Source of the DNA: Halorubrum coriense DSM 10284
GTDB lineage: Archaea; Halobacteriota; Halobacteria; Halobacteriales; Haloferacaceae
Direction: 5' to 3'
Length of the DNA: 35,951 bases
Assembly (NCBI RefSeq): GCF_000337035.1
Contig: NZ_AOJL01000043.1
Span: 1 to 35,951 of the forward strand
Shown here: positions 3,066-14,740 of the stretch, piece by piece
Layout of the letters: the number at the start of each line of letters is the position of its first letter
Position numbering within the stretch: the stretch's first letter is position 1
Program-made: the position numbers and the translations under genes
Notes under the pieces: generated by a model
Databases searched by the model: none
What the model was told of the DNA's origin: nothing
Seen by the model: only the letters and a program-made list of their open reading frames with translations

Positions 3066-3446
3066 TCAGGACTCTCGGTACAACAGGACCGCGAGGACGG
3101 CGATCAACGCGACCTGCGCGACCTTGTCGACGGCGCCGTACACGCCGATGTCGGCCGGGAACGAGTAGGTACCGAAGACGAAGTTGATGAGGTACCACAG
3201 GACGATCTGCCCGGCGGTGAACGGGATTCCGAGCGCGTACACGAGCCGGCGGCGGTACCCCGAGACGATCGCCGTCACGCCCGCGCCGAATCCCAGGGTC
3301 GCGAAGAAGAACGAGGCTCCCAACGCCCCCCCGACCAGAAAGCCGAGAACGACGTGGACGATTCCGGACACGGTCGCGGCGAGGATCCCGATCCAGTGGA
3401 GGGGGGTCAGCGATTCGACGTCGACGCCGGCGTCGGTGCGTGCCAT
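3066..3446 (-). CDS. Small four-helix membrane protein, conserved haloarchaeal type
   Basis: The 126-residue protein starts at MARTDAG and has four hydrophobic segments in the regular spacing of a four-helix membrane protein, with Arg-rich loops (GYRRRL near the middle). It resembles uncharacterised haloarchaeal membrane proteins (DUF7475-like, from memory). A GTG five codons upstream (3461) keeps the frame open, but ATG 3446 is preferred because a TATA-like element (cttatgt on the plus strand, 3474-3480) lies about 31 bases upstream, as for a leaderless transcript. It stands alone, convergent with the phosphatidyltransferase gene. Function unknown. Confidence 0.8.
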   Translation of the reverse strand: MARTDAGVDVESLTPLHWIGILAATVSGIVHVVLGFLVGGALGASFFFATLGFGAGVTAIVSGYRRRLVYALGIPFTAGQIVLWYLINFVFGTYSFPADIGVYGAVDKVAQVALIAVLAVLLYRES

Positions 3447-3537
3447 GAATGTCCGACCCACGGACTCGGTCGGCTTATGTCTACTCCCGGCCCCGAATCG
3501 ACGGCCGACGGGAGGACGCCGGCCGTCGCCGCCGTGG

Positions 3538-3568: not shown

Positions 3569-3616
3569 ATGCCACACCGTCTCAGTCGTCGACCGCGGAC
3601 GGGTGAGTTCGCGTGA
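3569..3616 (+). other. Candidate leaderless mini-ORF coupled to the dehydrogenase gene
   Basis: ATG 3569 opens a 15-residue frame, MPHRLSRRPRTGEFA, whose TGA (3614-3616) overlaps the GTG start of the next gene as GTGA. The ATG sits where a leaderless transcript from the TATA-like box at 3538-3545 would begin. The peptide has four Arg and one acidic residue, unlike normal haloarchaeal proteins, so translation rather than the product may matter. No Shine-Dalgarno is seen before the GTG. This is inference; four similar cases occur in the window. Confidence 0.4.
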
Positions 3617-4671
3617 GCGACCGCGACGCCGGACGGGCGGTCGAGTTCGTCGGCCCGGAGCGCGTCGAGGTCGTCTCGACGGAGGATCCCGTCCCCGCCC
3701 CCGACGAGGTGGTCGTCGACGCGTCCGTCTCGGCCGTGAGCGCGGGGTCGGAGCTGCTGGCGTACCGCGGCGAACTCGACCCCGAGACGGTCGCCGACGA
3801 GGAACTGGCCGCGCTCGACGGGGACCTCTCGTACCCGCTCCGGTACGGCTACGCGGTCGTCGGCCGAGTGACCGCGGTCGGCGACGCGGTCGACCCGGCG
3901 TGGCGCGGCCGGACCGTCTTCGCGTTCAACCCCCACGAGAGCCGGTTCGCCGTCGCCCCGGACGCCCTCCGACCGGTTCCCGACGGGGTCGACCCGGAGG
4001 CCGCGACGCTGTTCGCGAACGCCGAGACCGCGGTCACGCTGACGCTCGACGCCGCCCCGCGGCTCGGCGAGCGCGTCGCGGTGTTCGGCGAGGGCGTGGT
4101 GGGGCTGCTCACCACCGCGCTGCTCGCGCGGAGCGGCGCGGAGACGGTCGTCGCGGTGGAACCGAGGGAGCGACGCCGGTCGCTCGCGGCCGAGTTCGGA
4201 GCCGACGCCGTCGTCGATCCGAGCCGGTACGACGGCCGGGCGGGCGTCGTCGACGCCGTGCGCGAGCACACCGGCGGCGTGGACCTCGCGGTCGAGGTGT
4301 CTGGCCACCCCGAGACGCTCGAGACCGCCGTCGAGACGACGCGGTTCGACGGGCGAGTCCTCGTCGGGTCGTGGTACGGGACCAAGCGCGCCGACCTCGG
4401 CTTCGGCGACCACTTCCACCGCGGACGGGTCACCGTCCGCAGCAGTCAGGTGTCCACCATCGCCCCGGAGCTCCGCGGGCGCTGGGACCACGAGCGCCGC
4501 CGCGAGACCGCGTGGCGCGAACTGCGCCGGCTCGACGACGACCTCGACGTGACGGACCGGCTCGTCACGGACCGCGTCCCGGTCGGTCAGGCGACGAGCG
4601 CGTACCGCCGGCTCGCCGACGAGACCGAACCGACCCTCCAGCTGCTCTTCACCTATCCATGTACGAACTGA
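3613..4671 (+). CDS. MDR-family (zinc-type alcohol dehydrogenase-like) oxidoreductase without the zinc cysteines
   Basis: The 352-residue protein has the two-domain layout of medium-chain dehydrogenases: an N-terminal GroES-like domain, then a Rossmann domain with G159-E-G161-x2-G164 followed by AVEPRERRRS, whose basic run suggests NADP(H). The catalytic-zinc Cys of classical alcohol dehydrogenases is absent; the site reads SAGSELLAYRGE, like the BchC-type branch. It is probably a soluble oxidoreductase for an unknown substrate. It heads an operon in which the pterin synthase homologue overlaps by 13 bases, followed by GT4 and methyltransferase genes, so its substrate may be a pterin or sugar intermediate. 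The GTG start has no Shine-Dalgarno and is overlapped by a short upstream frame. Confidence 0.87.
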   Translation: MSDRDAGRAVEFVGPERVEVVSTEDPVPAPDEVVVDASVSAVSAGSELLAYRGELDPETVADEELAALDGDLSYPLRYGYAVVGRVTAVGDAVDPAWRGRTVFAFNPHESRFAVAPDALRPVPDGVDPEAATLFANAETAVTLTLDAAPRLGERVAVFGEGVVGLLTTALLARSGAETVVAVEPRERRRSLAAEFGADAVVDPSRYDGRAGVVDAVREHTGGVDLAVEVSGHPETLETAVETTRFDGRVLVGSWYGTKRADLGFGDHFHRGRVTVRSSQVSTIAPELRGRWDHERRRETAWRELRRLDDDLDVTDRLVTDRVPVGQATSAYRRLADETEPTLQLLFTYPCTN

Positions 4672-5030
4672 CCGTCACCGAGTCGTTCGTCGCACAGCAC
4701 TACCTCACCGTCCCGAACCCGCCGGCCGACGAGGCGGAGCTCCACTCGCACGTCTTCACCGCGGAGGCGACGTTCCGCGGCCCCGAACTCGGCGAGTACG
4801 GCTACCTGCTCGACATCGACCTCGCGCTCGACGCCCTCGACGACGCGGCGGACCGCTACCGCGACGAGACGCTCAACGACCACTTGGAGGGCAATCCGAG
4901 CGCCGAGCGCCTCGCCCGGGCGCTGTTCGACGCGCTCGCGACCGTCGACGCCCCGTCCGCGACGGAACTGACGGTGAGCGTTCGGGAGGACGAGGTCGCG
5001 CGCGTCTCCTACACCGGCGAACTGCGGTGA
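4659..5030 (+). CDS. 6-pyruvoyltetrahydropterin synthase / QueD family protein, PTPS-III-like
   Basis: The 123-residue protein has the metal ligands of the family: H14 in FVAQH, and H29 and H31 in LHSHVF. It also has YGYLLDIDLALDAL and LNDHLEGNPSAERLA, the dimer and substrate-binding segments. In QueD and PTPS the nucleophile is a Cys four residues before the first His of the HxH pair (C-x3-H-G-H). Here that place is Glu25 (E-x3-H-S-H) and the protein has no Cys. That substitution marks PTPS-III, which cleaves the dihydroneopterin triphosphate side chain to a 6-hydroxymethyl pterin. The gene overlaps the dehydrogenase by 13 bases and is followed after 7 bases by a glycosyltransferase. A pterin substrate is likely; the product is inferred. 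Confidence 0.88.
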   Translation: MYELTVTESFVAQHYLTVPNPPADEAELHSHVFTAEATFRGPELGEYGYLLDIDLALDALDDAADRYRDETLNDHLEGNPSAERLARALFDALATVDAPSATELTVSVREDEVARVSYTGELR

Positions 5031-5037
5031 CCGTCCC

Positions 5038-6249
5038 GTGCGCGTCGCCCTCGTCCTCGCCGGCGACATCGAGTCCGAGTCCGGCGGCTTCTACTACGAC
5101 CGCCGGCTCCGCGACCGCCTCCGCGAGCGCGGGCACGCGGTCGAGGTCGCCTCGCTCCCGCGGGGGTCGTACCGCCGCCGGCTCGCCCCGAACCTCCGCG
5201 CCCGACGGCTCGCGGAGCGGCTGTCGGGGTTCGACGTGGTCGTCGAAGACGGGCTGGCGCACCCGTCCGTGCTGCTCGCGAACCGGCGGATCGACGCGCC
5301 GGTCGTCGCGCTCGTCCACATGATCGCGTGGCGTGCGCGGGCGGCGACGGGGGAGAGCCCGGACGCGTCGGGCACCGTCGAGCGCGCCCGCTCGGGGCTC
5401 TCGCGTCGCTTGGCCGCGGCGGTCGAGCGACGGTTCCTCCGGAGCGTCGACGCCGCGGTGTACAACGCCGAGGAGACCCGCCGGGACGCGGCCGGGCTGG
5501 GCGGCCCGCGGCGGAGCGCGGTCGCGCCGCCGGCCGGCGACCGATTCGATCCGCTCGTCTCCGCCTCCGAGATCGAAGCGCGAGCGCGGGACGGCCCGCT
5601 CGAAGTGACGTTCCTCGGGAACGTCGTCCCGCGGAAGGGGCTCGACGTGCTCGTCGACGCCCTCGCGCGGCTCGACAGAAGCGAGAGCGACTGGCGGCTG
5701 ACGGTCGTCGGCGACCGGACGATCGCGCCCGACCACGTCGAGCGCGTCGCAGACGCGGTCGCGGCGGCCGGGGTCGGCGACCGAGTCCGATTCGTCGGTC
5801 GACTCGACGACGACGCGGTCGCGACGCGGCTCCGAGAGACCCACGTGCTGGCGGTCCCGTCGCGCTACGAGCCGTTCGGCATGGTGTACCTGGAGGCGAT
5901 GGGGTTCGGCTGCGTCCCGCTGGCGACGACCGCCGGCGGCGCGGGGGAGTTCGTCCGCGACGGTGAGTCGGGGGTCCTCGCGCCCCCGGGCGACTCGCGC
6001 GCCGTCGCCGCGGCGCTCCGGGACCTCGACGACCGAGACCGGCTGGCACGGATGGGCGTCGCCGCGCGGCGCGACTACGAGGCGCGACCGGGGTGGCCCG
6101 AGACGCTCGACCGCGCGATCGACTTCCTCGCGGCGGAGCACGCCCGGAGCGGGGACGGTGGGTGTCGCGGCGGCGACGGGAACGAGCGCCGCGGGGGCGA
6201 CGGGAGCGACCGCCGCCGCGGCGGGGGCCGACGGGGTGAGCGGGCGTGA
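5038..6249 (+). CDS. GT4-family glycosyltransferase with a Gly/Arg-rich tail
   Basis: The 403-residue protein is a GT-B-fold glycosyltransferase. The N-terminal Rossmann domain begins MRVALVLAGDIESESGG. The donor domain has the FLGNVVPRKGLDVLVDAL strand-helix and the retaining-enzyme E-x7-E motif in EPFGMVYLE, followed by TTAGGAGEFV. No membrane segment is seen. From about residue 370 the domain gives way to a 34-residue Gly/Arg/Asp tail with RRGG and RRRGGG runs, encoded by an imperfect short tandem repeat. The GTG start lies 7 bases after the pterin gene, and the stop overlaps the methyltransferase GTG. GT4 includes the cyanobacterial tetrahydrobiopterin glucosyltransferase, so a pterin acceptor is possible, though a lipid or glycan acceptor is equally open. 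Confidence 0.88.
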   Translation: MRVALVLAGDIESESGGFYYDRRLRDRLRERGHAVEVASLPRGSYRRRLAPNLRARRLAERLSGFDVVVEDGLAHPSVLLANRRIDAPVVALVHMIAWRARAATGESPDASGTVERARSGLSRRLAAAVERRFLRSVDAAVYNAEETRRDAAGLGGPRRSAVAPPAGDRFDPLVSASEIEARARDGPLEVTFLGNVVPRKGLDVLVDALARLDRSESDWRLTVVGDRTIAPDHVERVADAVAAAGVGDRVRFVGRLDDDAVATRLRETHVLAVPSRYEPFGMVYLEAMGFGCVPLATTAGGAGEFVRDGESGVLAPPGDSRAVAAALRDLDDRDRLARMGVAARRDYEARPGWPETLDRAIDFLAAEHARSGDGGCRGGDGNERRGGDGSDRRRGGGRRGERA

Positions 6250-7019
6250 CCGACCACGCGGCGTACCTCGACGCGAAGCGCGCGCTCGACGACCGCTCGC
6301 TCGACCGCGAGGTGCTCGACCGGTTCGCCGCCGAACTCCCGCCGGAACCGACGGTCCTCGAAGTCGGTGCCGGCACGGCGACGATGGTCGAACGCCTCGT
6401 CGACTGGGGCGTACTCGACGGCGGTCGCTGGGTCGCCGTCGACGCTCACGAGGCGGCGCTCGCGGCGGGCGAGGCGCGGATCGGCGACGCCTGCGGGGAC
6501 GTCACCGTCGAGTACCGCGTCGCAGACGCCTTCGACTTCGCTGCGGAGGCGGCCGCCGCGGGCGAGCGGTTCGACGCGGTCGTGGGGTGCGCGTTCTTCG
6601 ACGTGGTCGACGCGGCACCGGCGGTCGACGCCCTCGCGGACGTCGCCCCGGTCGCGTACGCACCGATCACCTACGACGGCGAGACGCGCTTCGCGCCCGC
6701 CGATCCTGACGACGAGGCCGTCCTCGACCGCTACCACCGGCACATGCGGGAGTTCAGGGCCGGGGGCCCCGACGGCGCGGCGGCCGTGGCCCGCGAGGCG
6801 ACGGTGATCGCCGAGGGACCGTCGCCGTGGGTGATCGAACCGCCGTACGAGTCCGGGGAGCGGACGGTCCTCTCGCACCTCCTCGACACGGTCGCGGACG
6901 CGGTCGGCGAGACCGGACTCGACGCGAGCGGCTGGGCGGAGCGGCGACGGGAGGCGCTCGGCGACGGGCGGCTCCGCTACGAGGCCGCGAATCGGGACCT
7001 GCTGGTCCGCCTCGGGTGA
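6246..7019 (+). CDS. Class I SAM-dependent methyltransferase
   Basis: The 257-residue protein has a Rossmann methyltransferase core: motif I VLEVGAGTATMVERL (about residues 37-51), an acidic end to strand 2 (VAVDAHEAAL), VADAFDF, and FDAVVGCAFFDVV as motif IV. The C-terminal half is a longer helical region typical of small-molecule methylases. The GTG start overlaps the glycosyltransferase TGA (GTGA), so it is translated from the same message. Its position suggests that it methylates the product of the pterin/glycosyl pathway, but the acceptor cannot be read from the sequence. Confidence 0.85.
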   Translation: MTDHAAYLDAKRALDDRSLDREVLDRFAAELPPEPTVLEVGAGTATMVERLVDWGVLDGGRWVAVDAHEAALAAGEARIGDACGDVTVEYRVADAFDFAAEAAAAGERFDAVVGCAFFDVVDAAPAVDALADVAPVAYAPITYDGETRFAPADPDDEAVLDRYHRHMREFRAGGPDGAAAVAREATVIAEGPSPWVIEPPYESGERTVLSHLLDTVADAVGETGLDASGWAERRREALGDGRLRYEAANRDLLVRLG

Positions 7020-7077
7020 GGGCGGCGGTCGACGGCGCGGGTCGGGGCCGCCGCGATCGCGCCGGCCGAGCGGCGGA

Positions 7078-7266
7078 CTACGGGCCGATCGGTTCGGTCG
7101 GAAGCGGCTCCGGAAGGCCCCCCAGCACGAGCGTCGTGTAGTGGAGGAAGACCGCCAGCGCCGCGATCGATAACAGCAGCAGGAACAACAGGATCATCCG
7201 CTCGTCGCTGCGGACGAGCCCGGAGGTGTCCGCGAGGAATCGGGCCCAGACGCGGCGCTCGGTCAT
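7078..7266 (-). CDS. Small single-span membrane protein, haloarchaeal
   Basis: The 62-residue protein has a basic N terminus (MTERRVWARF), one strongly hydrophobic helix (about residues 24-48) and a short Pro-rich tail ending EPIGP. The positive residues predict an N-in topology. A TATA-like ttaaaa on the plus strand (7293-7298) lies about 29 bases upstream of the ATG, supporting this start and leaderless transcription. It resembles short conserved proteins of haloarchaea with no known function. It is convergent with the methyltransferase operon. Confidence 0.75.
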   Translation of the reverse strand: MTERRVWARFLADTSGLVRSDERMILLFLLLLSIAALAVFLHYTTLVLGGLPEPLPTEPIGP

Positions 7267-7334
7267 CGTCGAGACGTTGCGCCCGTGGTCGGTTAAAAGT
7301 AGCCGGCGGTCCGGGTCGGCGCGGTGCCGCCCGC

Positions 7335-8315
7335 TCAGTCGTCCGTGAGCGACGGGCGGGACCGGGTGAGCGGCTCGCCGTCGACGGGCTCGTCGGGGTT
7401 CGCGTCGACGGCGGCTCGGGAGAGCCCAAGCCGGGCGTCGACGGCGACATCCTCGCGCACGTGGACGGTGCCCCGGTGGACCGCGATCGCGTCCGCGAGG
7501 TGGAGCCGCACCGCGTCGAGTAACACCTCGGCCTCCAGCGGCTGGCCGCGGCGCTTGATCTCGTCCACGTCAGCCCCCGGCGGCACGTCGAAGGCGCGCT
7601 GGGCGATCACTGGCCCCTGGTCGAGGTCCGTCGTGACGTAGTGCGCGGTGACGCCCGCGACCCGGACGCCCGCGTCCTTCGCCTGCCGGTACGCCTCCGC
7701 GCCCGGGAACGCCGGGAGCAGAGACGGGTGGACGTTGACGATCCGGCCCTCGTACCGGAAGACGACCTCGGGCGAGAGGATGCGCATGTAGCGGGCCAAG
7801 GCGATCAGGTCGATCTCGTACTCGGCCAGCAGGTCGAGCAGGCGGTCCTCGTCGGTGTTGCCCTTGCCGTCGCCCACGTCGTAGAACGGCTTGTCGTAGC
7901 GCTCCGCGAGCGACCGGAGGTCGCCGCGGTTACCGATGACGACGGGGATCTCCGCCTCCGCGCCGTCGTCGGCCAGCTCCCCGCTGGCCTCGGCCTCCAA
8001 GAGCGCCTCCGGCGCGTGCGTCTCCTTCGTGACGAGGAGCGCGACGCGGCGCGCGTCGCGGTCGCTCGGGAACCGGACCTGGATGTCGACGTCGAGCTCG
8101 CGGCCGAGCTCGGCGAGCGCGCGGCGCAGCTCGCCGCGAGACGTCTCCATCTCCGCGGCGTCGACGCGGGTCGTCATCCGGAAGACGCCCTCGCGGACGG
8201 CCTGGTCGAGGTCCTCGATGTTGATCCCCCGCTCGAACAGCAGAGAGGTGACCCGGGCGATGAGTCCGGTCTTGTCTCCTCCGACGACCGTGATCTCGGT
8301 CAGTTCGCGGGTCAT
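7335..8315 (-). CDS. purU: Formyltetrahydrofolate deformylase
   Basis: The 326-residue protein has an N-terminal ACT domain (about residues 5-85, beginning TEITVVGGDKTGLIARVTSL) and a C-terminal formyltransferase-fold domain with the catalytic trio N194, H196 (NVHPSLLPAF) and D232 (DLDQGP). It hydrolyses 10-formyl-tetrahydrofolate to formate and tetrahydrofolate, the formate serving purine synthesis; ACT domains usually sense glycine or methionine. About 40 residues extend beyond the usual C terminus. The frame is open far upstream, but ATG 8315 begins the ACT homology and has a TATA-like gcatatacc (8347-8355) upstream. It diverges from purS-purQ, consistent with a one-carbon/purine role. The upstream frame also contains a GTG 8326 mini-ORF of four codons overlapping this ATG. 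Confidence 0.93.
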   Translation of the reverse strand: MTRELTEITVVGGDKTGLIARVTSLLFERGINIEDLDQAVREGVFRMTTRVDAAEMETSRGELRRALAELGRELDVDIQVRFPSDRDARRVALLVTKETHAPEALLEAEASGELADDGAEAEIPVVIGNRGDLRSLAERYDKPFYDVGDGKGNTDEDRLLDLLAEYEIDLIALARYMRILSPEVVFRYEGRIVNVHPSLLPAFPGAEAYRQAKDAGVRVAGVTAHYVTTDLDQGPVIAQRAFDVPPGADVDEIKRRGQPLEAEVLLDAVRLHLADAIAVHRGTVHVREDVAVDARLGLSRAAVDANPDEPVDGEPLTRSRPSLTDD

Positions 8316-8346
8316 GCGACGATCACCTCCGCGGGTTCGAACGGCT

Positions 8347-8355
8347 GCATATACC
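8347..8355 (-). promoter_or_regulatory. TATA-like box for purU
   Basis: On the minus strand this reads ggtatatgc, centred about 36 bases before the purU ATG, giving a leader of roughly 8-10 bases. It lies in the 180-base divergent region between purU and purS. Confidence 0.45.
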
Positions 8356-8466
8356 GCTTTCAACAGCCGGAGGGGTTTGCCCCTTTCGTTCCGTGCGGTC
8401 CCTGCCTCCCGCACGAACGACCGATCTATATCCACGAATATGCGTATAAACGGCGTTCCAAAACGG

Positions 8467-8474
8467 TTTTTACA
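8467..8474 (+). promoter_or_regulatory. TATA-like box for purS-purQ
   Basis: The run tttttaca is centred about 25 bases before the purS ATG, the spacing of a leaderless haloarchaeal promoter. A second AT-rich patch (8425-8452, tatatcc and gtataaac) lies just upstream and could be a regulator site for the divergent purine genes. Confidence 0.5.
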
Positions 8475-8495
8475 CACGACTCCGCACCAACAGGC

Positions 8496-8747
8496 ATGAC
8501 CGCATACACGGCGACGGTGACGGTCCGGCTGAAGCGGGGCGTCCTCGACCCGGAGGCCGAGACGACCCAACAGGCGCTCGAACGGCTCGGGTTCGAGCTG
8601 TCGGACCTCCGGTCGGCCGACCGGTTCGAGGTCGACCTCGACGCCGCCGACGCCGACGAGGCGGCCGACCGCGCCGACGAGATGGCCGAGCGGCTGCTCG
8701 CGAACCCCACGATCCACGACTACGACGTGGCGGTCGCGGAGCGATGA
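8496..8747 (+). CDS. purS: Phosphoribosylformylglycinamidine synthase subunit PurS
   Basis: The 83-residue protein matches PurS, the small dimeric subunit bridging PurL and PurQ in the FGAM synthase complex (fourth step of purine synthesis). It shows YTATVTVRLKRGVLDPEA at the N terminus, then ALERLGF, and VDLDAADADEA before the C-terminal helix LLANPTIHDY. Start ATG 8496 follows a TATA-like box by 25 bases. Its TGA is overlapped by an ATG (ATGA), where purQ would be expected to start, but purQ lies 92 bases further on (see the direct repeat at 8745-8850). No purL is present in the window. Confidence 0.95.
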   Translation: MTAYTATVTVRLKRGVLDPEAETTQQALERLGFELSDLRSADRFEVDLDAADADEAADRADEMAERLLANPTIHDYDVAVAER

Positions 8748-8839
8748 CGGTCGCCGTCCCCGAGACGACGCCGATCGTCACCGGCGCGCCCCGCCCAGAC
8801 GCGTCGGTCGCGGCCGCCCCCGCGGGGTGGGCGGCGTGA
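8744..8839 (+). other. Candidate 31-codon relay mini-ORF between purS and purQ
   Basis: ATG 8744 overlaps the purS stop as ATGA. The frame runs 31 codons and stops at TGA 8837-8839, which overlaps the purQ GTG (8836) as GTGA. Its first five residues, MTVAV, equal the start of PurQ because the DNA is repeated; the rest is an Ala/Pro-rich stretch with no recognisable domain. It would carry ribosomes from purS to purQ without a Shine-Dalgarno. Whether the peptide matters is unknown. Confidence 0.45.
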
Positions 8840-8850
8840 CGGTCGCCGTC
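8745..8850 (+). repeat. 14-base direct repeat flanking a 78-base spacer at the purS-purQ junction
   Basis: The sequence tgacggtcgccgtc occurs at 8745-8758 and again, identically, at 8837-8850, a period of 92 bases. The first copy is preceded by A (ATG) and the second by G (GTG, the purQ start). The arrangement looks like an insertion or duplication that copied the original purQ start and moved the gene away from purS. Confidence 0.7.
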
Positions 8851-9513
8851 GTCCAGTTCGGCGGCTCGAACTGTGACCGCGACGCGGTCCGCGCGCTCGA
8901 CCACCTCGGCGTCGACGCCGAGCGCGTCTGGCACGCGGACGGCCTCCCGGCCGACACCGAGGGGATCGTCCTCCCCGGCGGGTTCTCCTACGGCGACTAC
9001 CTCCGCGCCGGCGCGATGGCCGCCCGCGACCCGATCCTGAACGAGGTCCGCGACGCGGCCGAGGCCGGCGTCCCCGTGATCGGGGTCTGTAACGGCGCGC
9101 AGATCGGCTCGGAGTCCGGGCTCACGCCCGGCGCGTTCACCACCAACGCCTCCGCGCGCTTCCAGTGCGAGCCGGTCCACCTGCGCGTCGAGCGCGCCGA
9201 CACGCCGTGGACCGCGGCCTACGACGAGGGAGACGTGATCGAGATCCCCATCGCGCACGGCGAGGGGCGCTTCGAGATCGGCGAGGACGCCCGCGCCGAC
9301 CTCGTGGGCGACGACCGCGTCCTCTTCCGGTACTGCGACGCTCGGGGAAACGTCACCGACGCCGCGAACCCGAACGGGTCCACCGACAACGTCGCGGGCG
9401 TCCTCGGCGAGCGCGAGACGGTCGCCGTGCTCATGCCCCATCCCGAACGCGCCACGCTCCCGGACCTCGGTCGGAGCACGGACGGGGCGGGGATACTCGA
9501 AGCGTTCGCCTGA
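8836..9513 (+). CDS. purQ: Phosphoribosylformylglycinamidine synthase subunit PurQ (glutaminase)
   Basis: The 225-residue class I glutamine amidotransferase begins MTVAVVQFGGSNCDRD. It has the oxyanion segment LPGGFSYGDYLRAG, the nucleophile C85 in GVCNGAQIG, and the catalytic His/Glu in MPHPERA near the C terminus. It releases ammonia from glutamine for the PurL synthetase. GTG 8836 is chosen over an in-frame GTG at 8827 because it matches the family N terminus and overlaps the stop of the short frame before it. It is cotranscribed with purS and convergent with the SHOCT gene. Confidence 0.95.
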   Translation: MTVAVVQFGGSNCDRDAVRALDHLGVDAERVWHADGLPADTEGIVLPGGFSYGDYLRAGAMAARDPILNEVRDAAEAGVPVIGVCNGAQIGSESGLTPGAFTTNASARFQCEPVHLRVERADTPWTAAYDEGDVIEIPIAHGEGRFEIGEDARADLVGDDRVLFRYCDARGNVTDAANPNGSTDNVAGVLGERETVAVLMPHPERATLPDLGRSTDGAGILEAFA

Positions 9514-12460: not shown

Positions 12461-12556
12461 ATGATCGTCTTACGTGTCCCCCGGCGTCGGACCGGGAACA
12501 CCGGAACTGAGGGACTTCGCCGGCCCGGCGAGGCGGACGGACCCGTCGGGAACTGA
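12461..12556 (+). other. Candidate leaderless mini-ORF before the AAC(3)-like gene
   Basis: ATG 12461 opens a 31-residue frame beginning MIVLRVPRRRTGNTG and stopping at TGA 12554-12556, two bases before the ATG of the next gene. It lies 29 bases after an RTAAC-type box. The peptide is Arg-rich (six Arg, three acidic residues), unlike real haloarchaeal proteins. It may act by delivering ribosomes to the downstream start, which has no Shine-Dalgarno. Confidence 0.35.
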
Positions 12557-12558
12557 CC

Positions 12559-13377
12559 ATGTCGTTCGAACCGCTGTCGGACGCGAGCAGAGCCGCCAAC
12601 CTGGTCAAACATCAGGCGCTCAAGCGGCTCAACCGGCGACGGAACGCCTTCCCCGTCCCGGCCGCGCGGTTCGAGGAACTGCTCGACCGCCACGGCGGCG
12701 GGCACTCGAAGGCGTTCGTCCACGTCGGGTTGAGCGACGTGAAACGGGCGTTCGAGACCGACCCGTACGCGTTCCTCCGGTCGACGCTGGGCGACCGCTT
12801 CCGGAGCGTGCTCGCGCCGGGGTTCACGGACTACTTCGCCACGTCCGGGGTGTATCACAAGGCGTACTCCCGACCGAAACACGGGACGTTCGGGACGTTG
12901 TTCCTCCGAGACGCGGACTACCGGACCGACGACGCGATGAAGTCGATCCTGGTCGAGGGGCCGTACCGCTTCGACGGCTGCCGCCACTCGGACAGCTATC
13001 ACGAGGACGGCTGTTTCGCCCGCCTCGTCGAGGAGGACACCCTGATGCTGGACGTCGGAACGCCGTGGATCACCTGCTCGCACCTCCATTACTTCGAGAG
13101 CCGTCTGGGCCTGGACTACGTCGCCGAGGAGACCTTCGAGGGAGTGAGATGTACCGAAGAGGACGGCTGTGTGCCGGTCGAGCAGACCTGCGGGGTCCGG
13201 ACCTCGCCGTTCTACTCGTGGAACAAGCCGAAACTGACCAGACGGCTGGAACGCGACGGCGTGCTCCACAGGTACGACCTGAACGGGCTCAAGGTCCTCT
13301 TTTTCACCTTGGGCGACCTGAAGTCCTCGCTCGTCCCCCGTCTGAAGGAAGACCCGCAGTACTTGGTGACGCTGTGA
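12559..13377 (+). CDS. AAC(3)-fold acetyltransferase-like protein, Cys-rich
   Basis: The 272-residue protein shows the landmarks of the AAC(3) aminoglycoside acetyltransferase fold: AFVHVGLSDVKRAF (the phosphopantetheine-binding VH-S start), APGFTDYF in place of TPTFT, RPKHGTFGTLFL, and SHLHYFE, the family's T-x-LHYxE signature. The match is distant. Such homologues occur in polysaccharide clusters, where they may acetylate amino sugars; a drug-resistance role is not suggested. It has six Cys in the second half (about residues 140-215), unusual for a haloarchaeal cytoplasmic enzyme and possibly a metal site. It is transcribed toward the GT4 gene, with a 143-base gap before that gene's own promoter and mini-ORF unit. 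Confidence 0.65.
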   Translation: MSFEPLSDASRAANLVKHQALKRLNRRRNAFPVPAARFEELLDRHGGGHSKAFVHVGLSDVKRAFETDPYAFLRSTLGDRFRSVLAPGFTDYFATSGVYHKAYSRPKHGTFGTLFLRDADYRTDDAMKSILVEGPYRFDGCRHSDSYHEDGCFARLVEEDTLMLDVGTPWITCSHLHYFESRLGLDYVAEETFEGVRCTEEDGCVPVEQTCGVRTSPFYSWNKPKLTRRLERDGVLHRYDLNGLKVLFFTLGDLKSSLVPRLKEDPQYLVTL

Positions 13378-13486
13378 CCGCGAGCCCTCGCGCTCGGTGC
13401 GCCCGGTCCGCGGCGACGGAAACGGTGCGGTCCGCGACGCCGAACCCGTCCGGCGGTCACCGGGGCGGCGACGTCGGTAGCCGACG

Positions 13487-13495
13487 GATAACAAA
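13487..13495 (+). promoter_or_regulatory. RTAACRAW-type promoter box before the GT4 mini-ORF
   Basis: The sequence gataacaaa is centred 30 bases before ATG 13521, not before the glycosyltransferase ATG 13556 (65 bases). The spacing indicates that the message begins at the short frame. Confidence 0.5.
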
Positions 13496-13520
13496 GCCGA
13501 TCTCCGTGAAGGAAACCGAC

Positions 13521-13559
13521 ATGAACGGCGAAGCCGCGTCCGGTCGGGGGACGAGATGA
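13521..13559 (+). other. Candidate leaderless mini-ORF coupled to the GT4 gene
   Basis: ATG 13521 opens a 12-residue frame, MNGEAASGRGTR, whose TGA (13557-13559) overlaps the GT4 ATG as ATGA. It lies 30 bases after the box at 13487-13495. No Shine-Dalgarno is evident before the GT4 start. Confidence 0.4.
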
Positions 13560-14740
13560 GCGTCGTTGACGGGGCGGAAGCCGACGCCGGTGACGGCGAC
13601 GGGGGGGCGGCGAAGGCGGCGACGTCACCCGCGGCGACGGTCCCCTCGTCGACGGCGGTCCTCGTCGTCGGTCCGGCGGGATACCGGACGGAGGGTACGG
13701 GCGGAATCGGTCGGTACATCGCCGAACAGCGGCGGTACCTCGAGGACCGAGTGTCGCTGAACGTCGTCGACACCGCCGTTCGAACCCCCGAGCGGCCGGT
13801 CGAGTACCTCCGGACCGCGGTGACCGTCCTCCTCGTGTGGCTCGGGTTCCTCGCACGCCGGCGGCCGGACGTCGTCCATGTCCACACCTCCCACTCGTTC
13901 TCGTTTTACCTCTCGGCGCCGTACGTCCTCGTCGCCCGTTTGCTGTGGCGGCGGCCGGTGATACTCCACGTCCACGGCTCGTCGTTCGACGCGTTCATCG
14001 AGGACGCCTCGGTGCCGGCCGCCCGCTTCCAACGAGCGGTGTTCGACGCCTGTACCGCGGTCGTCGCCCTCTCGGAACAGTGGCGCGAGGTCCTCTCGGC
14101 CCGCGTCCCGCCGGAGCGTATCGCCGTGATCCCGAACGCCGTCGACCCGGACCAGTACGACCCCGACCCCGTGGCCGACCCGCCGCACCTCGTGTTCGTC
14201 TCCAACCACATCCGGCGGAAGGGAATCGTCGAGGTGACGAGGGCCATCGGCGAGCTCCGAGACGCCGGGGTCTGGTTCCGAGCGACCATCGCCGGGAGCG
14301 GCCCGCTGTCGGACCACGCCGAGGCCGTCGCCGACGCGCACGACGGGGTGGAGTACGTCGGGTTCGTGTCCGAAGAGCGGAAGCGCGACCTCCTCAGTGA
14401 GGGGAGCGTCTACGTCCTCCCGACGAGCGCGGAGGGGCTGCCGATCGCCGTGCTCGAGGCGATGGCCGGCGCGAACGCGATCGTCTCGACCGACGTCGGG
14501 GGCATCCCCTCTATCGTCGACGAGGCGAACGGCGCGCTCGTCGCTCCCGGGGACGGCCGCACGCTGACGGACGCCCTCGGGACGCTGCTCGCGGACCCGG
14601 AGACGACCGAACGGATGGGGCGGGTCAGCCGCCGCCGCATCGAGGAGTCCTACGCGTGGCCCGACGTCGTCGAAGAGCTGCTCTCGCTGTACGCTCGCGC
14701 GCTGGACGGCGCCGCCGCGACCGCCGACGCCGACGGGTGA
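13556..14740 (+). CDS. GT4-family glycosyltransferase
   Basis: The 394-residue GT-B-fold enzyme has a low-complexity Ala/Asp/Gly N terminus (residues 1-33) before the first strand TAVLVVGPAGYRTEGTGGIGRY. The VVHVHTSHSFSFYL and VILHVHGSSFDAF segments mark the acceptor domain; LVFVSNHIRRKGIVEVTRAI opens the donor domain, and E-x7-E is present in EGLPIAVLE, followed by STDVGGIPSIV. It retains the anomeric configuration and transfers from a nucleotide sugar, probably onto a lipid-linked glycan at the inner membrane face. A hydrophobic patch near residues 85-100 may touch the membrane. Its ATG overlaps the stop of a 12-codon upstream frame. Confidence 0.92.
   Translation: MSVVDGAEADAGDGDGGAAKAATSPAATVPSSTAVLVVGPAGYRTEGTGGIGRYIAEQRRYLEDRVSLNVVDTAVRTPERPVEYLRTAVTVLLVWLGFLARRRPDVVHVHTSHSFSFYLSAPYVLVARLLWRRPVILHVHGSSFDAFIEDASVPAARFQRAVFDACTAVVALSEQWREVLSARVPPERIAVIPNAVDPDQYDPDPVADPPHLVFVSNHIRRKGIVEVTRAIGELRDAGVWFRATIAGSGPLSDHAEAVADAHDGVEYVGFVSEERKRDLLSEGSVYVLPTSAEGLPIAVLEAMAGANAIVSTDVGGIPSIVDEANGALVAPGDGRTLTDALGTLLADPETTERMGRVSRRRIEESYAWPDVVEELLSLYARALDGAAATADADG

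Follow-up and report, generated by a model that had tools for sequence, protein, structure and literature searches.

What do a dehydrogenase, a PTPS-fold protein, a glycosyltransferase and a methyltransferase make together when their genes overlap or abut on one message? The question is raised by a haloarchaeal stretch of 35,951 nucleotides from Halorubrum coriense DSM 10284 (contig NZ_AOJL01000043.1, our C43, of a 3.65-Mb genome; G+C about 65-80%), hereafter the window, in which an original prediction had placed an operon for a glycosylated, methylated pterin. Here, we put at about 0.5 the probability that the window holds one copy of a conserved cross-domain pathway to a GTP-derived 2-amino-4-oxopyrimidine or pterin-type compound that is methylated, usually glycosylated and probably lipid-linked. 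The core of the pathway is formed by an MDR dehydrogenase, a PTPS-IV-type T-fold protein, a methyltransferase and a CDP-alcohol phosphotransferase, joined in most cases by a GT4 glycosyltransferase. We build on the genes themselves, their conservation, linkage and co-distribution, and the motifs that they have kept or lost.

A gene unit shared by haloarchaeal genomes

The MDR-superfamily dehydrogenase gene (3613-4671, forward strand, GTG start; Pfam ADH_zinc_N, 3e-20) is annotated as a zinc-binding alcohol dehydrogenase. It overlaps by 13 nt the gene for the PTPS-fold (COG0720) protein (4659-5030, forward; PF01242, 1e-17), whose ATG start codon at 4659 lies within the final dehydrogenase codons. 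A gap of 7 nt separates this gene from that for the GT4 glycosyltransferase (5038-6249, forward; Glycos_transf_1, 6e-33), which stands between the PTPS and methyltransferase genes when present and here overlaps by 4 nt the gene for a class I S-adenosylmethionine (SAM)-dependent methyltransferase (6246-7019, forward; Methyltransf_25, 3e-6). Open reading frame (ORF) coordinates and Pfam matches thus bear out the four overlapping or abutting same-strand genes of the original prediction, but its gene list was incomplete and its upstream limit wrong. The unit reaches upstream to a CDP-alcohol phosphotransferase of the phosphatidyltransferase family (2170-2958, forward; PF01066, 2e-11), one of three such proteins found in the window genome, and probably also takes in a small membrane protein of the DUF7475 type (3066-3461, reverse strand), which scores 27.1 bits, below the Pfam cut-off of 31.3, and has homologues above it.

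Haloarchaeal neighbourhoods, comprising the window and 80 others picked from the listed matches, were scored with profiles of annotated members; these profiles were trained partly on the same loci that they score, with thresholds that we set ourselves. Across the 81 loci, all anchored on PTPS (81/81), we found the dehydrogenase in 71, the methyltransferase in 68, the CDP-alcohol phosphotransferase and the DUF7475 protein in 54 each, GT4 in 50 and a GTP cyclohydrolase III in 27; these frequencies, like the bacterial ones below, are not unbiased estimates, because the haloarchaeal loci were picked from listed matches and the bacterial loci come from the 80 most similar to Thiodictyon. The order dehydrogenase-PTPS-GT4-methyltransferase was found in most of the 81 haloarchaeal and 69 bacterial neighbourhoods, far above chance.

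Co-distribution extends this picture beyond linkage. PTPS is present in 171 of 292 haloarchaeal genomes and absent from 121; the dehydrogenase accompanies it in 169 of the 171 and occurs in none of the 121. Within a set of 97 genomes, the methyltransferase was found in 58/59 PTPS-positive genomes, the CDP-alcohol phosphotransferase in 55/59 and GT4 in 46/59, each against 0/38 PTPS-negative genomes, so that the co-occurrence of glycosyltransferase and methyltransferase genes with the pterin gene holds. The sole PTPS-positive genome without the methyltransferase (G077) also lacks the dehydrogenase, GT4 and CDP-alcohol phosphotransferase, and its PTPS match is therefore probably another paralogue. 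As members lie on separate contigs or far apart in several genomes (e.g. G008, G066, G075 and G078), co-presence is not merely a by-product of linkage. The dehydrogenase, PTPS, methyltransferase and CDP-alcohol phosphotransferase, with GT4 in most cases, are a real functional unit, in which the CDP-alcohol phosphotransferase is more regularly present than GT4 and the methyltransferase family is specific to this pathway.

The window genome itself carries a second, divergent dehydrogenase-PTPS-methyltransferase cluster on contig C20 (about 57.5-60.6 kb; 4994-8062 of locus L034), which includes a GTP cyclohydrolase III of its own; no GT4 or CDP-alcohol phosphotransferase gene lies within its 14-kb stretch. 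A gene annotated as ‘GTP cyclohydrolase IIa’ lies directly upstream of the dehydrogenase on a Natrarchaeobaculum plasmid (L059, 7240-10458); there, a hypothetical ORF and an IS5 transposase come next, and the cluster may have been disrupted.

The PTPS-fold protein, its partners and their bacterial relatives

An AlphaFold model of the PTPS-fold protein (predicted local distance difference test score, pLDDT, 89) had as its top Foldseek match in the PDB SCO6650 from Streptomyces coelicolor (3d7j), followed by E. coli QueD. The window protein contains no Cys anywhere. Alignments, the first of which was read without three out-of-frame rows (L013, L018 and L026), gave a haloarchaeal consensus E-x-x-x-H-S-H, with Glu where QueD has its catalytic Cys; the catalytic His is not conserved, and three zinc-type His residues and the pterin-anchor Glu E110 are retained, E110 being invariant. 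In the PTPS family, this Glu holds the pterin 2-amino group.

The original prediction called this protein PTPS-III-like and had it make a hydroxymethyl pterin from dihydroneopterin triphosphate, to be glycosylated and methylated thereafter. PTPS-III, the folate-type COG0720 enzyme, is defined by the motif ExxHGH (PMC5041015), which is absent: the window protein reads DEAELHSH, with Ala at -3, and the haloarchaeal consensus EgxxHSH, with Glu at -4. The PTPS fold and the presence of GT4 and methyltransferase genes on the same message would suit a canonical PTPS-III; however, with no catalytic Cys or His, linked cyclohydrolases of types II and III rather than I, and the CDP-alcohol phosphotransferase left unexplained, such a route is hardly credible.

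Other assignments were also rejected. PTPS-I (QueD) needs CxxxHGH and the catalytic His of LDH, and here the Cys position is Glu and LDH-xx-LN reads RDE-T-LN; as for a QueD role in archaeosine synthesis, a separate canonical QueD adjoins a QueE-like radical SAM ORF in the window genome (L002). PTPS-II (biopterin-type) requires CxxxxxHGH, which a protein without Cys does not have.

PTPS-IV carries the signature FGPAQ, and its published neighbourhoods include PF00925 and PF01872 (PMC5445326). That paper labels PF00925 as GTP cyclohydrolase I/FolE2; PF00925 is GTP cyclohydrolase II, which changes the reading of PTPS-IV. In our alignments, FGPAQ is present in the bacterial homologues and absent from the window and haloarchaeal proteins. 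The tree places the PTPS-fold protein in a clade with bacterial PTPS-IV, apart from QueD and other paralogues (support 98/92, with a long-branch warning), and a profile built from bacterial PTPS-IV only gives haloarchaeal members 30-68 bits against 4-9 for haloarchaeal QueDs, with some other bacterial paralogues reaching 57. As the protein lacks FGPAQ and yet groups with PTPS-IV, we call it an archaeal counterpart of that family rather than a signature-bearing member. A Gemmatimonadales genome (L147) holds two more PTPS homologues (L210 and L228, ~1.7 kb apart), of which L228 stands beside the clade of PTPS-IV and haloarchaeal proteins on a long branch. Among the papers searched, none bore on SCO6650, HVO_1281-1283 or halopterins (the sole halopterin match concerned synthetic chemistry), and SCO6651-6655 had two incidental mentions.

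Six bacterial PTPS queries run against 84,980 species genomes recovered 576 or more relatives; those in the top 80 came from Gamma-, Beta- and Alphaproteobacteria, Actinomycetota, Acidobacteria, Gemmatimonadetes and one Nannocystaceae bacterium. The same gene order recurs across Actinomycetota, Pseudomonadota, Acidobacteria and Gemmatimonadetes, with named records from Streptomyces fungicidicus, Methylosinus trichosporium OB3b, Candidatus Thiodictyon and Agrobacterium plasmids; Palleronia has dehydrogenase-PTPS-methyltransferase without a glycosyltransferase. Among the 69 loci flanked by 6 kb or more on either side, where neighbour families were named by Pfam, the dehydrogenase and methyltransferase occur in all 69, GT4 in 67 and the CDP-alcohol phosphotransferase in 60. 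Additional neighbours are a RibD_C reductase (46), an LPG_synthase_TM-type membrane protein (44), GTP cyclohydrolase II (RibA; 40), a creatininase (34) and a sulfatase-superfamily protein (23); Streptomyces-type loci are often without RibD within the flank.

The partner enzymes have kept or lost motifs of their own. In the dehydrogenase alignment, SAGSE and YGYAVVG stand in place of the CGTD and GHExxG of zinc MDRs, so that the usual catalytic zinc ligands of a zinc-dependent MDR alcohol dehydrogenase are absent; the signature SWxG...FH...QV is invariant. The E-x7-E motif in the C-terminal Rossmann domain of GT4 is intact, with E278 and E286 invariant, and the CDP-alcohol phosphotransferases of both haloarchaea and bacteria keep the full catalytic motif DxxDGxxARx8GxxxDxxxD. 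The methyltransferase model (pLDDT 93) drew Foldseek matches only to generic small-molecule methyltransferases. The argument that GT4 resembles a cyanobacterial pterin glucosyltransferase fell away: that enzyme (5ze7, BGluT) scores 32 bits, outside the best 16 matches of the GT4 profile, against 74 for the sucrose-phosphate synthase-like Tll1590 and 53 for MshA/PimB-like enzymes.

Precursor supply and a proposed pathway

Which precursor would such a set of enzymes use? Among 44 cluster-encoded RibA proteins, the position of E. coli Tyr105 is occupied by Met in 20, His in nine, Cys in one and Tyr in 14, and a linked creatininase accompanies 30/30 of the non-Tyr copies against 3/14 of the Tyr copies (loci L056-L149). 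Met at this site reportedly makes S. coelicolor SCO6655 stop at the formylaminopyrimidine. Archaeal GTP cyclohydrolase III also stops there, and BrbF, annotated as a creatininase, has been shown experimentally to deformylate the formylaminopyrimidine (PMC9478397). That two different cyclohydrolases yielding the same intermediate accompany the cluster is our strongest chemical clue. The reductase domain is all that the cluster RibD examined contains; the 2-amino group, needed for a pterin-type product, should therefore be retained. Given clusters that combine GTP cyclohydrolase II or III with a RibD-type reductase and a likely deformylase of the creatininase family, the precursor is probably a diaminopyrimidine of the riboflavin branch and not the product of GTP cyclohydrolase I. 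Of the modified-pterin operon first proposed, then, what survives is one conserved unit with a GTP-derived, pterin-type character, to which the linked GTP cyclohydrolases and the retained pterin-anchor Glu point; that its genes are unassigned also stands, the pathway being real and without an assigned function. As an observation in its own right, the residue at the Tyr105 site could serve in annotation to recognise GTP cyclohydrolase II enzymes that form the formylaminopyrimidine.

The window genome has an unlinked GTP cyclohydrolase III on contig C26, besides the copy in the C20 cluster. Elsewhere it has one copy of RibD_C/ArfC and four genes of the creatininase family, so that the precursor could be supplied even where no such genes are linked.

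These same neighbours bear on two readings that dispense with a modified pterin. The first is a side-branch of F420, deazaflavin or riboflavin metabolism, with PTPS-IV serving F420 synthesis. GTP cyclohydrolases III and II and RibD do make riboflavin and F420 precursors, and a review, drawing on unpublished work, has PTPS-IV act in F420 synthesis (PMC5041015). However, eight of the 11 cluster-bearing bacterial genomes tested had no F420 ligase, and GT4, the methyltransferase and the CDP-alcohol phosphotransferase have no role in F420 synthesis. F420 use is widespread in haloarchaea, and PTPS is missing from the 121 genomes noted above. We judge this reading very improbable. The second is a glycophospholipid pathway without any pterin, in which the PTPS-fold protein would be a regulatory or nucleotide-sensing subunit. 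It would account for the lost PTPS catalytic triad, the constancy of the CDP-alcohol phosphotransferase and a GT4 profile whose nearest matches are enzymes of the sucrose-phosphate synthase-like, MshA and PimB types, inositol or phosphatidylinositol being the substrate of several. It sits badly with the repeated linkage, across unrelated lineages, to GTP cyclohydrolases II or III, RibD_C and creatininase, and with the association between RibA residue and creatininase, which points to a real GTP-derived intermediate; we consider it quite unlikely.

From the neighbours and what is known of their families, a pathway to a GTP-derived, pterin-type compound may be sketched as follows. GTP would be opened to a formylaminopyrimidine nucleotide by GTP cyclohydrolase III in archaea or a variant GTP cyclohydrolase II in bacteria, and a creatininase-family or ArfB enzyme would deformylate it. 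RibD_C/ArfC would then reduce the ribosyl chain without deamination, keeping the 2-amino group. The dehydrogenase and the PTPS-IV protein might act next on the resulting diaminopyrimidine polyol phosphate, a speculative step to which, taken by itself, we give low odds: the dehydrogenase would perhaps re-oxidise the ribityl 2'-OH to a ketone, which the T-fold protein would condense with the 5-amino group, so that a pterin ring would form with no need of GTP cyclohydrolase I. The same ketone is normally formed by GTP cyclohydrolase I through an Amadori rearrangement. Family membership suggests that GT4 would glycosylate and the methyltransferase methylate the product, and that the CDP-alcohol phosphotransferase would couple its polyol to a lipid phosphate, probably using CDP-archaeol or CDP-diacylglycerol; in bacteria, the LPG-synthase-TM-type protein may carry the product across the membrane. 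The sequence in full, in which archaea and bacteria alike build a pterin ring without GTP cyclohydrolase I and attach the pterin, once methylated and glycosylated, to a membrane phospholipid, is a tentative and rather unlikely version.

The last step divides the proposed lipid-linked product from a cytosolic, soluble alternative: a charged pterin, glycosylated, methylated and containing a phosphodiester, with the CDP-alcohol phosphotransferase joining two soluble alcohols. The same gene evidence would serve, and the product might be one of the charged pterins reportedly found in haloarchaea. Against this, the LPG_synthase_TM-type protein at 44/69 bacterial loci and the sulfatase-superfamily protein at 23/69 fit a product that is exported or resides in the membrane, the cluster showed no dedicated cytidylyltransferase, and the distribution reaches far beyond haloarchaea. 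A soluble pterin is, in our view, unlikely.

Several observations weigh against a lipid-linked, pterin-type product. The PTPS-IV-type protein is without the known catalytic triad and SCO6650 is said to be inactive on the PTPS substrate, so PTPS-IV might bind a ligand rather than catalyse. Next to the window operon there is neither a GTP cyclohydrolase nor a RibD or deformylase, and 18 of the 69 bacterial loci pair RibA with creatininase and have no RibD within the flank. GT4 is absent from 13/59 PTPS-positive haloarchaeal genomes, so glycosylation is not universal. Some CDP-alcohol phosphotransferases make soluble phosphodiesters, di-inositol phosphate synthases among them. Finally, the Fisher p-values for co-distribution (4e-16 to 1e-81) are uncorrected for phylogeny.

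PTPS-IV proteins occur, without an assigned function, in many Streptomyces and in more than half of the sampled haloarchaeal species. The present analysis supplies the complete gene set and its near-perfect co-distribution in haloarchaea, together with a predicted precursor branch and a probable lipid step. If true, our reading would establish a new class of GTP-derived membrane molecule common to archaea and bacteria, and would end hundreds of misleading ‘6-carboxytetrahydropterin synthase, queuosine biosynthesis’ annotations.

Flanking genes and comparison with known systems

Just past the methyltransferase gene, on the opposite strand, lies a 62-aa ORF with one hydrophobic stretch (7078-7266, reverse; MTERRVWARFLADTSG...). 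Further downstream (7335-9513), ORFs resemble PurU-type formyltetrahydrofolate deformylase, PurS and PurQ by eye, no search having been made; as the downstream ORFs are conserved mainly in four same-genus loci (L035-L038), their proximity may be chance. An unlabelled family of ORFs that recurs in four loci had no Pfam match and partly overlaps other genes. A second GT4 gene (13556-14740), unrelated to the operon, overlaps by 4 nt a 361-aa ORF without a Pfam match (12474-14740 together).

Several elements of the unit have known relatives. The dehydrogenase shares with BchC, the bacteriochlorophyllide hydroxyethyl dehydrogenase, the character of an MDR without zinc ligands, but at 65 bits against NCBIfam TIGR01202 it is far under the equivalog cut-off of 291 and has no bacteriochlorophyll context. 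GT4 has its fold in common with BGluT, the UDP-glucose:tetrahydrobiopterin glucosyltransferase, and the sequence match is weak (E 5e-7); other GT4 enzymes are closer (Tll1590 at 1e-19, MshA-like and PimB-like enzymes at 1e-13), and there is no specific relation. The CDP-alcohol phosphotransferase shares its complete catalytic motif with archaetidylinositol phosphate synthase, its best NCBIfam match though far under cut-off, and with other CDP-alcohol phosphatidyltransferases; it differs in forming a separate family, with 29-40% identity across domains, that is phyletically tied to PTPS-IV.

The entry into archaeal riboflavin and F420 synthesis (ArfA, ArfB and ArfC) and bacterial BrbF find parallels in the GTP cyclohydrolase III, creatininase-family deformylase and RibD_C of related clusters; however, the loci examined have no lumazine synthase, riboflavin synthase or deaminase domain and carry instead the dehydrogenase, PTPS-IV, GT4, methyltransferase and CDP-alcohol phosphotransferase. 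Bacterial PTPS-IV, represented by SCO6650, has the same fold, clade and neighbours (dehydrogenase, GT4, methyltransferase and CDP-alcohol phosphotransferase). The haloarchaeal proteins differ in lacking FGPAQ and in having ExxxHSH with all three zinc-type His residues, where the bacterial proteins have HGA(T), and the precursor enzymes beside them differ too: GTP cyclohydrolase III in haloarchaea (27/81, none of these enzymes adjoining the window copy) and GTP cyclohydrolase II (40/69) with RibD (46/69) in bacteria.

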